From Xylocopilactobacillus apicola (GTDB lineage: Bacteria; Bacillota; Bacilli; Lactobacillales; Lactobacillaceae): 64,000 nucleotides of DNA. The notes beneath the pieces are model-generated. The model did not search any database, was not told where the DNA came from, and saw nothing but the letters and a program-made list of their open reading frames with translations. Below, piece by piece: positions 31,137 to 54,271 of the stretch (positions are counted from its first letter, which is position 1; each line of letters opens with the position of its first letter). Location: assembly GCF_033095985.1 (NCBI RefSeq), contig NZ_AP026802.1, forward strand, positions 1,178,001 through 1,242,000, in the 5' to 3' direction. The position numbers and the translations under genes are program-made.

Positions 31137-31143
31137 AATAAGA

Positions 31144-31216
31144 TGGGCGGCCAGGGGCTCGAACCCTGGACCCACGGATTAAGAGTCCGCTGCTCTACCA
31201 ACTGAGCTAGCCGCCC
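31144..31216 (-). tRNA. tRNA-Lys (anticodon CTT)
   Basis: The minus strand folds into a full cloverleaf of 73 bases. The acceptor stem is GGGCGGC/GCCGCCC with an A discriminator, the D-arm is GCTCAGTTGGTAGAGC, the anticodon loop CTCTTAA (anticodon CTT), and the T-arm CCAGGGTTCGAGCCCTGG-like. CCA is not encoded. It has its own promoter and terminator. Confidence 0.97.
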
Positions 31217-31243
31217 ATATCTAAGCCGTCAAACGACTTAAAT

Positions 31244-34952: not shown

Positions 34953-36296
34953 CTAACTCAGTTCTTCGGCAACAACTGCACTGAGTTCATTAATATATTT
35001 ATTTACTAATTCATCAGTTGGCGCTTCAACCATAATCCGCAAAAGATTTTCCGTCCCACTTGGTCGAATCAAAACTCGCCCATCGGACGCAAGTTCTTCT
35101 TCTATTACTTTAATTTTGTCTTGAAGTTTACTTGATTTTTCCCAAGAATTCTTATCTTTCACCTTGATATTAACTAATTTCTGCGGAAAAGTTCGAACTG
35201 GTGCCGCCAACTCAGATAATGTTTTATTTTCACTAACCATAATATTTAACAGCATTACCATCGTTAAAAGTCCGTCACCTGTGTTGTGATAATTACTTAG
35301 AATAATGTGCCCGGACTGCTCTCCGCCGACCACAAAACCGTTCTTAAACATATTTTCGCTCACATAGCGATCTCCCACAGCCGTAACTTGATGATCAATA
35401 CCAACATGATCCAATGCCTTAAATAAGCCAATATTACTCATGACCGTAGTGACAACAGTGTTGCCAGGAAGTTCATCGTGCGATTTCAAATAGCTAGCAA
35501 TGATATACATAATCTTATCGCCGTCAACAATTTTGCCAAACTCATCTACAGCCAAACAGCGATCCCCGTCACCATCAATTGCAAAACCAACGTCAAAATG
35601 CTGCGTTGGCACAGCTTCCATTAACTTTTCAGGATGTGTTGAACCAACGCCTTTATTAATATTAAGTCCATCTGGATGATCGGCCATCACTTCATAACTC
35701 AAATTAAGCTTACTAAGAAGCGTCGGTGCTACCTGACTTCCAGCACCGTTTGCTGTATCTAAAATGATATTGAGTTTACTCTGATAATCAAGTGCATACC
35801 CTTGTAAAAACTCCACATAGCAATCTAAAGCTCCAGGAAGCGTTAAAACTTTGCCTAAACCTTTTGCACTTGGACGCGGCAGTGTATCTTCTTTTGCATC
35901 AATAAATTTCTCAATCTCTTCTTCCATTTGATCAGATAATTTATTACCATCACTACCAAAAAACTTTATTCCATTGTCTTCCGCAGGGTTATGTGAAGCT
36001 GAAACCATAATTCCAGCAGAAAGGTTAAATTTTTTGATCAAATAGGAAAGTGCTGGCGTAGTGATAACACCAATATTTTCTACATCAACTCCTACTGATA
36101 AGAGACCAGCAACTAAGGCTGAAACTAACATTTCTCCTGATGCTCTAGTATCACGCGCCACTACAACTTTTGCATATTCAGTGCTGCCCTTAGTTAAGAC
36201 AAAGCCTCCACAACGGCCTAACTTAAAAGCCATCTCTGGTTTTAGCGTAATGTTAGCAACTCCTCTAACTCCATCGGTTCCAAAATATTTTGTCAT
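34953..36296 (-). CDS. glmM: Phosphoglucosamine mutase
   Basis: The 447-residue enzyme makes glucosamine 1-phosphate for peptidoglycan precursors. It has KYFGTDGVRGVAN at the N-terminus, the phosphoserine loop GIMVSASHNP near residue 93, the metal loop DGDGDR near residue 238, and the phosphate-binding RPSGTENLLRIMVEA near the end. I start it at ATG 36296, after GAGG; a frame eight codons longer runs into cdaR. GlmM binds and restrains CdaA in several Firmicutes, fitting the cdaA-cdaR-glmM order. Confidence 0.96.
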   Translation of the reverse strand: MTKYFGTDGVRGVANITLKPEMAFKLGRCGGFVLTKGSTEYAKVVVARDTRASGEMLVSALVAGLLSVGVDVENIGVITTPALSYLIKKFNLSAGIMVSASHNPAEDNGIKFFGSDGNKLSDQMEEEIEKFIDAKEDTLPRPSAKGLGKVLTLPGALDCYVEFLQGYALDYQSKLNIILDTANGAGSQVAPTLLSKLNLSYEVMADHPDGLNINKGVGSTHPEKLMEAVPTQHFDVGFAIDGDGDRCLAVDEFGKIVDGDKIMYIIASYLKSHDELPGNTVVTTVMSNIGLFKALDHVGIDHQVTAVGDRYVSENMFKNGFVVGGEQSGHIILSNYHNTGDGLLTMVMLLNIMVSENKTLSELAAPVRTFPQKLVNIKVKDKNSWEKSSKLQDKIKVIEEELASDGRVLIRPSGTENLLRIMVEAPTDELVNKYINELSAVVAEELS

Positions 36297-36303
36297 ATTA
36301 TCC

Positions 36304-37284
36304 TCACTTTTTATTTTCATCTTTTACAACAATACTAACTGGAATTGATTTTTGGCTATATTTATTAATGCCGTCTTTGATTGGCAGTTCAATGATTCTT
36401 TGAACATTTTTTTCAACCCCGCGTACAACTACCGGAATCGCTAAAGTATCAATTCGGTCAATAATTTCTTTTTTGCCATAGATTTTTAATTCACTGACGT
36501 TAGATTTAAACGAATAAGTTTTTCCGCTCACTCCCTCTCCATCCTGCGTAAATTTAATTTTAACAGTTTTATGAGGTAATTCCTTAATTGGAAGGCGGAC
36601 ATGAACGACTTCCGGGTTAACTACTGCATTAACTGTATTTCCATTTTGATCAAGCGGTTGAACAATCACGTCTTGGCTAAATGTCACCTTGGTGTCATTT
36701 GGTAAATTAATTTTAGCGACAATCTGATTAATTTTTTCAATTTCAGTTTTTGCACTAGTAACTTCGGCTGTGTCTTGACTTAACTCTGGCCTTCCTGCTT
36801 CATAACCAGGCGCAATACTATCTTTATTGTAATCGCTTTGAATAGCCATCTTACGATTTTGGCGGACCTGAATATTAATTGTCACCTCCGAAGGAATTAT
36901 TTGATAGTGAATTGATTTATTAATTCCCTGCTCCTTAAGCGTTATTTTATGAACACCTGTCGAGCGATTACCAATGTCTGCAATAATTCGGAAGTTTAAA
37001 GTATTCGCAGTCGCTGTGACCAAAGCAGCTGGTCCTTCAAGCCGAACTTTCACTTTTTGCGGATAACCAGTAATAAAAAATTTATCCGTATTACCATTAA
37101 GTTGCAGCGGAGCATTGATCGTGGTCGTTTTGGTTGCAGCCATTTGCTCTTGACGCGAATTATCTGAATTGGTTGTGCTTTGAGTCTTTTGAGTCTGCAC
37201 ATAGACAAACAAAAATATTGCCATGAAAAGAGCCGAAATTACTGAAATAATCTTTGTTTTAAAATCTAATTTTTCTGGATTCAT
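36304..37284 (-). CDS. cdaR: CdaA regulator CdaR (YbbR)
   Basis: The 326-residue protein has one N-terminal membrane helix (about 10-30) and three YbbR repeats outside the membrane (about 50-130, 135-220, 225-310). Repeats carry paired motifs such as YPQKVKVRLEGPAALV and PEVVHVRLPIKELPHKTVKI. It modulates the diadenylate cyclase CdaA from the cell-surface side. Its start overlaps cdaA by four bases, and glmM starts seven bases after its stop. Confidence 0.92.
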   Translation of the reverse strand: MNPEKLDFKTKIISVISALFMAIFLFVYVQTQKTQSTTNSDNSRQEQMAATKTTTINAPLQLNGNTDKFFITGYPQKVKVRLEGPAALVTATANTLNFRIIADIGNRSTGVHKITLKEQGINKSIHYQIIPSEVTINIQVRQNRKMAIQSDYNKDSIAPGYEAGRPELSQDTAEVTSAKTEIEKINQIVAKINLPNDTKVTFSQDVIVQPLDQNGNTVNAVVNPEVVHVRLPIKELPHKTVKIKFTQDGEGVSGKTYSFKSNVSELKIYGKKEIIDRIDTLAIPVVVRGVEKNVQRIIELPIKDGINKYSQKSIPVSIVVKDENKK

Positions 37285-38126
37285 TCTTGATCACCTTTAT
37301 CAGATTTATTCTGACTTTGCGACAAAAGTTTCTGCCAGAAACTTTTCTTGGGAGCCGTTTTTGCACCCATCTCATCAAATAAAAATTTTCGATACTCATC
37401 GTGAGTCATACCAGTAATCAATTTTCCATCTTTAGTAAATGAAATCGCTCCTGTCTCTTCCGATACCACAATCGTCAGCGCATCCGTTACTTCACTAATA
37501 CCAACAGCTGCCCGATGACGTGTTCCAAACATTTTAGGGATATCTGGATTATCAGATAAAGGTAAAAACGCAGCAGCAGCAGCAACTCGATCATCTTGGA
37601 TAATAACTGCACCGTCGTGAAGCGGCGTATTGGGAATGAAAATATTGATCAAAAGTCCATTTGTAATCAAAGCATCAAGCTGAATTCCCGTTTCAGTGTA
37701 TTCTTCAAGACCTGTCGTTCCCTGTAAAGTGATTAGTGCCCCAATTCTTCTGGTTGCCATATACTGTAACGCTGTATCAATTTCGTCTATACGCTTTTTG
37801 ATCGCCACATCTTTTACATTGGCAGGCGTGAAAACTGATCCGCGCCCAATTTGTTCGAGACCACGCCTGATTTCTGGCTGAAAAATAATAACCAAAACAA
37901 CTACGGCCCAATTAATAACTTGATCGCTGATAAAATTTAAGGTTTTGAAATTAAAATACCAACTAATAACTTTCAATACGACAATAATTGCGATCCCTCG
38001 CAGTAATTGAGTAGCTTTAGTGCCGCGAATCATTAAAATTAACCAATAAAATAAATACCAAACAACAATAATATCAATAATATTGGTAAGAGTAGATAAA
38101 GTAAAAAATTTAGATAAGTCGATTAT
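37281..38126 (-). CDS. cdaA: Diadenylate cyclase CdaA with a probable non-canonical start codon
   Basis: It makes c-di-AMP from two ATP. The DAC domain has TPLHDGAVII (Asp171) and GTRHRAAVG (203-205). The first ATG (38033) would remove the first helix. In-frame codons upstream read IDLSKFFTLSTLTNIIDIIV then VWYLFYWLIL, which is the normal CdaA first helix, but contain no ATG, GTG or TTG. AAGGAGG (38132-38138) lies five bases before an ATA (38124-38126) and eight before an ATC. I take ATA as start, giving 281 residues, the usual length. A base error in the sequence is the main alternative. It follows potD by 14 bases. Confidence 0.85.
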   Translation of the reverse strand: MIDLSKFFTLSTLTNIIDIIVVWYLFYWLILMIRGTKATQLLRGIAIIVVLKVISWYFNFKTLNFISDQVINWAVVVLVIIFQPEIRRGLEQIGRGSVFTPANVKDVAIKKRIDEIDTALQYMATRRIGALITLQGTTGLEEYTETGIQLDALITNGLLINIFIPNTPLHDGAVIIQDDRVAAAAAFLPLSDNPDIPKMFGTRHRAAVGISEVTDALTIVVSEETGAISFTKDGKLITGMTHDEYRKFLFDEMGAKTAPKKSFWQKLLSQSQNKSDKGDQE

Positions 38127-38140
38127 TCTGGCCTCCTTAA

Positions 38141-39220
38141 TTATTGCCGTGACATTTTAAATTCTAAATAAAGATCATTATAATCCTCAACAATCTCTTG
38201 TCCCAAATCTCTGTAAGTATCCAAGTGTTCCATTGTTGTTTCAGCTGGATAAAAGGATTTATTTTCGACAATTGAACGAGGCAAATTTTTTTTCGCTGCC
38301 CGATTAGGGGTAGAATACCCGACGTATTTAGTATTTTGAGCTGCGTTTTCTGGTTCATTCATAAAATTCAAAAACTTATAAATCGCATCAAAATGTTTAG
38401 CAGTACGTGGGATCACGAAATTATCTAACCAAATATTACTCCCCTCATTTGGCACCACATAATGAAGGTGCGGATTTACACTCATCATTTCTCGGGCCTC
38501 TCCAGACCAATCAACTGCAAGGTAACTCTCTTCTTGCTCCATGTACATTTTAATTTCATCAGCAACAATTGCTTTTACATTTGGAGTTAATTTAACCAAG
38601 CGATCTCGCGCCTGTAAAAGCGTTTGATAATCCTTGGTGTTTATTGATTTATCCATTGTGATTAATGAAACCGCAAAAATATCTCGGACACTATCAATTA
38701 AAAGCAAGGAATTTTTAAACTTGGGATCCCATAAATCCTGCCAATGTTGAACCTCTTGTGGTTTAACATATTTATCGTTATAAACAATCCCCAATGTTCC
38801 CCAAAAATAAGGTAAAGAATACTGATTGTGAGGGTCAAAATTGCGATTCATAAATTCTGGATCAATATTATTTTGATTATGAATTCGACTAAGGTCAATC
38901 GGTATTAATAAATTCATATTCTTCATTTTCTCAACCATGTACTCAGAAGGAACCGTCAAATCATAACTAATTCCTCCCTGGCGAATTTTCTCAATCATCG
39001 ACTCATTACTATCGAATGTTTGAATTGTGACTTTATATCCTGTAGTACGTTCAAATTTCTTAACCAATTTCGGGTCAATGTAGTCGCCCCAATTAAAAAG
39101 ATTAAGAACTTTTTCTTCGTGATGATCAGGATTGGCAGAATGAGCAAGTTGATAATTGCCAAAAATTAAGATACCACAAGTAATTACAATTGCAATAAAT
39201 GCACTTAATATCTTTTTCAT
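38141..39220 (-). CDS. potD: Spermidine/putrescine-binding protein
   Basis: The 359-residue periplasmic-type binding protein has an N-terminal hydrophobic segment (about 4-24) that serves as signal or membrane anchor; it lacks a clear lipobox Cys. PotD-like blocks include VLNLFNWGDYIDPKLVKKFE near residue 42, SYDLTVPSEYMVEKM near 92 and YLAVDWSGEAREMM near 220. It captures polyamines for PotABC. Its ATG overlaps the potC stop (ATGA), and cdaA follows after 14 bases. Confidence 0.9.
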   Translation of the reverse strand: MKKILSAFIAIVITCGILIFGNYQLAHSANPDHHEEKVLNLFNWGDYIDPKLVKKFERTTGYKVTIQTFDSNESMIEKIRQGGISYDLTVPSEYMVEKMKNMNLLIPIDLSRIHNQNNIDPEFMNRNFDPHNQYSLPYFWGTLGIVYNDKYVKPQEVQHWQDLWDPKFKNSLLLIDSVRDIFAVSLITMDKSINTKDYQTLLQARDRLVKLTPNVKAIVADEIKMYMEQEESYLAVDWSGEAREMMSVNPHLHYVVPNEGSNIWLDNFVIPRTAKHFDAIYKFLNFMNEPENAAQNTKYVGYSTPNRAAKKNLPRSIVENKSFYPAETTMEHLDTYRDLGQEIVEDYNDLYLEFKMSRQ

Positions 39221-54140: not shown

Positions 54141-54162
54141 ATTTATTTCCTTTGGATACTAA

Positions 54163-54241
54163 AAAGGCACATGATACCTCCGCCTTAGTGCTGCTTCCTT
54201 CCGGACCTGACACGGTTCAACGGCATACCATTGCCCAGAAC
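54163..54241 (-). ncRNA. ffs: Signal recognition particle RNA (small bacterial type)
   Basis: The minus strand contains the invariant domain IV core CAGGTCCGGAAGGAAGCAGC, with GGAAGGAAGCAGC facing GTGTCAGGTCC. The flanking arms GGCAATGGTATGCC and GGCGGAGGTATC complete the short hairpin. It binds Ffh for membrane protein targeting. A T run follows at its 3' end. Its place upstream of dnaX is usual. End points are approximate. Confidence 0.93.
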
Positions 54242-54243
54242 TT

Positions 54244-54271
54244 ATTATATCGTAAAATAGAAATATTTCTA
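54244..54271 (-). promoter_or_regulatory. Promoter of the SRP RNA
   Basis: On the minus strand TATAAT (54244-54249) is preceded at 16 bases by TAGAAA (54266-54271). The -10 lies only a few bases before the expected RNA 5' end. Confidence 0.55.

Follow-up and report, generated by a model that had tools for sequence, protein, structure and literature searches.

A probable AUH start codon for the diadenylate cyclase gene cdaA in Xylocopilactobacillus

The cdaA gene of Xylocopilactobacillus, a small genus of lactobacilli from carpenter-bee guts, is very probably translated from an AUH codon, AUC at position 38123 in X. apicola and AUA in its sister species, as judged from the start region and its conservation. 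Positions refer to the window, the whole 64-kb stretch of X. apicola DNA that was analysed. Four sequenced species of the genus were compared, namely the window genome (G000; 2,311,735 bases, one contig) and three sisters (G001, G002, and G003, one of which has 2,271,855 bases). They are four separate assemblies, two of which are metagenome bins.

The cdaA locus and its start region

On the minus strand of the window, the gene order is potABCD, cdaA, a cdaR-like gene, and glmM. The features needed below are as follows.

34953..36296, minus strand: glmM (TIGR01455, 543 bits; start at 36296 taken from sequence)
36304..37284, minus strand: cdaR/ybbR-like gene, assigned by position and gene order; its start overlaps the cdaA stop (ATGA)
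37281..38123, minus strand: cdaA, diadenylate cyclase CdaA, 280 aa counted from ATC
38028..38081, minus strand: first predicted membrane helix of CdaA (IIDIIVVWYLFYWLILMI), with codons mostly upstream of ATG 38033
38031..38033, minus strand: ATG, the first in-frame ATG and rival start, lacking a good Shine–Dalgarno (SD) sequence
38121..38123, minus strand: ATC, the most likely cdaA start, aligned with the ATA of three sisters, 8 nt from the SD
38124..38126, minus strand: ATA, an in-frame alternative start that directly precedes ATC, with the SD 5 nt away
38132..38138, minus strand: SD AAGGAGG, read directly, 5 nt to ATA and 8 nt to ATC
38141..39220, minus strand: potD, upstream of cdaA; its stop TAA (38143–38141) lies 17 nt 5′ of ATC 38123

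The product was identified as CdaA by the TIGR00159 equivalog profile (275 bits against a cut-off of 188.8), and when translated from ATC it also matched PF02457 (DAC) above the cut-off with 145.8 bits. In all four genus genomes cdaA is the sole gene with a DAC domain. By analogy with other Firmicutes, it is presumably essential. No sign that the c-di-AMP phosphodiesterase had been lost was seen in the genus genomes, each of which encodes four DHH proteins including one of ~673 aa, the size of GdpP. The cdaA-cdaR-glmM order is present, glmM being recognised by TIGR01455 and the middle gene by position alone; the latter had no NCBIfam match in the profile search. The overlap of the cdaR-like gene with the cdaA stop may couple its translation to that of cdaA, under a shared limit on output. 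The longest glmM ORF begins at 36320, and the homologous start (MTKYFGTDGVRG) is ATG 36296, preceded by GAGGA. An Rfam search of the 64-kb window found no riboswitch at threshold and none near cdaA; it placed the small SRP RNA and tRNA-Lys(CTT) on the minus strand, at 54154–54247 and 31142–31217.

After the potD TAA, the minus strand reads TTAAGGAGGCCAGA-ATA-ATC-GAC-TTA, with the letters TT-AAGGAGG-CCAGA-ATA-ATC-GAC-TTA-TCT-AAA. Both ATA 38126–38124 and ATC 38123–38121 share the frame of ATG 38033, and no in-frame ATG, GTG, or TTG occurs from the upstream stop of this frame (38159–38157) down to 38033. The initial annotation had stated that such a codon is missing from the stretch separating the potD stop from the first CdaA helix, and that AAGGAGG sits five bases before an ATA and eight before an ATC; reading of the sequence bore out the former, and positions 38138–38132 agree with the latter. 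The duplex of this SD with the anti-SD, which is normal in the 16S rRNA of this genome (GGATCACCTCCTTTCT), has an energy of −11.1 kcal/mol, and an SD this strong (≤ −11 kcal/mol) was found at just 0.27% of randomly sampled ATH codons of the X. apicola genome.

Conservation of the start and the N-terminus

Alignment of the cdaA start in the sister species, proposed as a check by the initial annotation, revealed a canonical start at the conserved N-terminus in none of the four species. The sisters carry the potD TAA, the SD (AAGGAGG in G001 and G003, CAGGGGG in G002), and T(T/C)GGGAAA-ATA-GAT-TTA. Because their potD stop is in frame with cdaA, just five codons precede the ATA, none of which is plausible as a start. 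Among outgroup Lactobacillaceae, a canonical start was found at most seven codons from the ATC column at all 66 loci (ATG at 58, TTG at 4, and GTG at 4), with an SD at all but one, indicating that, among the genomes sampled, the AUH start of cdaA is confined to the genus.

A sequencing or assembly error hiding a true ATG, which the initial annotation had named as a danger to its reading, is contradicted by the absence of an ATG from the cdaA start in all four assemblies, metagenome bins included; although the X. apicola genome is probably PacBio-only (PMC10433979), we regard such an error as exceedingly improbable. The same holds for production of CdaA as a fusion by read-through or frameshift from potD. 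The two genes do lie in one frame across the TAA in the sisters, but their frames differ in X. apicola, so the shared frame is unconserved, and a strong SD stands between them.

The initial annotation left the start as ATA or ATC. The rare AUH start stood up to the comparison, and the choice between the two codons now falls on ATC 38123, which occupies the conserved column: in all three sisters ATC 38123 aligns with ATA, and ATA 38126 with AAA. This alignment therefore favours ATC as the start over ATA. Spacing can not choose between them, since all distances of 4–9 from GGAGG to ATG, 5 included, occur at ATG genes of X. apicola. Initiation at ATA 38126 in X. apicola has this permitted spacing and its frame on its side, together with the greater strength of AUA than AUU in Listeria (PMC13068326); given that the codon is not conserved, we consider it unlikely, if by no means negligible. 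ATC may be replaced or joined by ATA 38126 as the start in X. apicola, which would alter the protein by a single residue.

A start at ATG 38033 would give a short CdaA, the codons upstream being untranslated remnants. As the first canonical start in frame, this ATG would probably be picked by an automatic annotator. However, the codons upstream evolve as protein code. For cdaA codons 2–30, pS was 0.46–0.69 and pN 0.04–0.12 between species that are distinct (G002 and G003 hardly differ), resembling the rest of the gene; changes thus fall mostly at silent sites, which indicates that these codons are translated, and the upstream peptide is kept in the sisters. This contradicts the possibility, raised in the initial annotation, that translation begins at ATG 38033 downstream of untranslated codons. 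The SD at 38138–38132 has no good counterpart ahead of ATG 38033, and the best shared canonical start nearby had an SD energy of just −2.7. Translation from ATG 38033 would also delete helix 1, which was called from hydrophobicity and family knowledge rather than with a predictor. The PF19293 (CdaA_N) score was 33.3 bits from ATC, against a cut-off of 23.8, and fell below it to 23.3 bits from ATG 38033, the match then beginning at profile position 27. A start at ATG 38033 is consequently very unlikely in our judgement, and the AUH codon remains the preferred start. Automatic annotation would probably remove the first helix of the sole c-di-AMP synthase, and could likewise mis-start Der and mevalonate kinase, described below.

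Other AUH-start genes in the genus

We screened ~650 orthologue pairs (1.04 Mb from G000 and 1.02 Mb from G001, ~45% of each genome) for AUH starts. Loose scoring returned 90 non-canonical or mixed sites, mostly internal codons or noise; under stricter rules about a dozen were left, with clear cases in cdaA, infC, der, and mevalonate kinase. In total, at least five genes of the genus have AUH starts, namely cdaA, der, the mevalonate kinase gene, an EbsA-like gene, and infC, so the AUH start is not peculiar to cdaA. The AUH-start genes of this screen have conserved SDs.

The der gene, encoding the EngA GTPase (G000:C1 1116096, minus strand), starts with ATT/ATT/ATC/ATT in the four species and with ATG or GTG at outgroup loci with a readable N-terminus. 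The mevalonate kinase gene (TIGR00549; G000:C1 812251, minus strand) has ATC/ATA/ATT/ATT following GGAGGATCCGAAA, which is conserved apart from one species with GGGGGATCCGAAA, and canonical starts are available at outgroup loci where readable. The gene of the EbsA-like membrane protein (PF17255; G000:C1 1068962, minus strand) has ATT/ATC/ATT/ATT, a conserved AGGTG SD, and no good canonical start close by. infC has ATA in both G000 and G001, and in most Lactobacillaceae loci where the start is readable ATA follows GGAGGTG; it serves as a positive control and fits the AUA start of S. aureus infC (PMC13009471). A TPR-repeat gene shortly downstream of der (G000:C1 1114295, minus strand) has a candidate ATT start in both complete genomes, and in G000 an upstream ATG lacking a good SD is present.

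In a half-control with 128 orthologues of G056 and G000, two sites appeared in G056, apparently spurious, and in G000 cdaA and one doubtful site. The frequency, five AUH genes in ~650 pairs, has the order of magnitude known from Listeria and S. aureus or is somewhat higher, and we make no claim that the genus stands out. As for an unusual IF3, the protein of the genus differs at five family-conserved positions, none of them evidently connected with the choice of start codon.

The third base of the start varies in cdaA, der, mevalonate kinase, and the EbsA-like gene, and G was never seen. Its absence is suggestive of selection against AUG, and we do not lean on it because there are few independent changes and third-position G makes up only 16% in coding sequence.

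Such drift (ATC/ATA in cdaA, ATC/ATA/ATT in mevalonate kinase, and ATT/ATC in der), together with the occurrence of the AUH state in several unrelated genes, would also be expected if the start were real but neutral or slightly harmful, being tolerated because the SD and coupling to potD suffice, with no dosage control. However, the AUH state persisted while silent sites diverged strongly, and cdaA, der, mevalonate kinase, and ebsA reverted to AUG in none of the four species, even though a single transition suffices from AUA. We give this neutral explanation substantial weight, clearly short of an even chance. The drift between AUA and AUC in cdaA speaks against fine tuning of how strong the start is, and the changes at the third base fit either a low CdaA dose that is selected or one that is merely tolerated.

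Proposed mechanism and comparison with known AUH starts

That the AUH start holds down the dosage of CdaA we regard as roughly an even proposition, by analogy with reporter data on other genes and species (PMC13009471, PMC13068326). In such a mechanism, the initiator tRNA would decode AUH with a third-position mismatch and IF3 would discriminate against this start, whereas the strong SD and ribosomes ending potD 15–17 nt upstream would rescue enough initiation. The CdaA level would then reach only part of what an AUG start would yield, in step with the IF3 level as for infC, and der, mevalonate kinase, and the ebsA-like gene would share the design in the genus. RNA structure at the potD-cdaA junction was not above that of shuffles (z 0.19). 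If the weak start sets CdaA dosage, cdaA would be a simple natural case in which translation initiation fixes the level of a second messenger. The AUH genes would form a small set for testing IF3 control beyond infC.

A broader idea, which we hold to be improbable but worth stating, is that the output of the whole AUH set (cdaA, der, mevalonate kinase, the ebsA-like gene, and infC) co-varies with IF3 and initiation capacity. If true, c-di-AMP, ribosome assembly, and isoprenoid/envelope supply would be tied to the condition of the ribosome pool.

AUH starts as a kind are already known, for example in infC, pcnB, ccpN, and rnhC (PMC13009471 and PMC13068326), and the literature searched contained no description of cdaA with a non-canonical start. 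The autoregulated infC, which starts with AUU or AUA and encodes IF3, resembles cdaA in combining an AUH start with an SD, and infC of the X. apicola genome has ATA as well. It differs in that it encodes the discriminating factor itself and in that its AUA start is common across the family, whereas the AUH start of cdaA is genus-confined among the genomes sampled.

In S. aureus, AUH genes are infC, ccpN, cvfC1, and citZ, and AUA/AUU starts with an extended SD give ~10% of the AUG output, with ccpN at ≤30% in rich medium (PMC13009471). The starts of ccpN (AUA), cvfC1 (AUU), and citZ (AUA) are like that of cdaA in pairing AUH with an extended SD in a Firmicute, and those of ccpN and cvfC1 are conserved across species, as is the cdaA start in the genus. 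The genes are different, however, and were characterised there with ribosome profiling and reporters (PMC13009471), the cdaA start by sequence comparison. For L. monocytogenes, PMC13068326 lists six of 2265 core genes with fixed non-canonical starts, including infC (ATT) and rnhC (ATC), and ranks start strength as ATG > ATA > ATT. The likeness to cdaA is that AUH starts have become fixed in a tiny minority of core genes; the difference is that cdaA is not named among the six in the cited passages. In E. coli, the AUU of pcnB is likewise an inefficient start limiting synthesis of an enzyme, as summarised in PMC13009471 from Binns and Masters 2002, but there the effect was shown by experiment, in a Gammaproteobacterium, and the case of cdaA is made by sequence. 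Against this background cdaA is a new case of a known kind, and the more interesting part is the company of AUH-start genes that it keeps within its genus.
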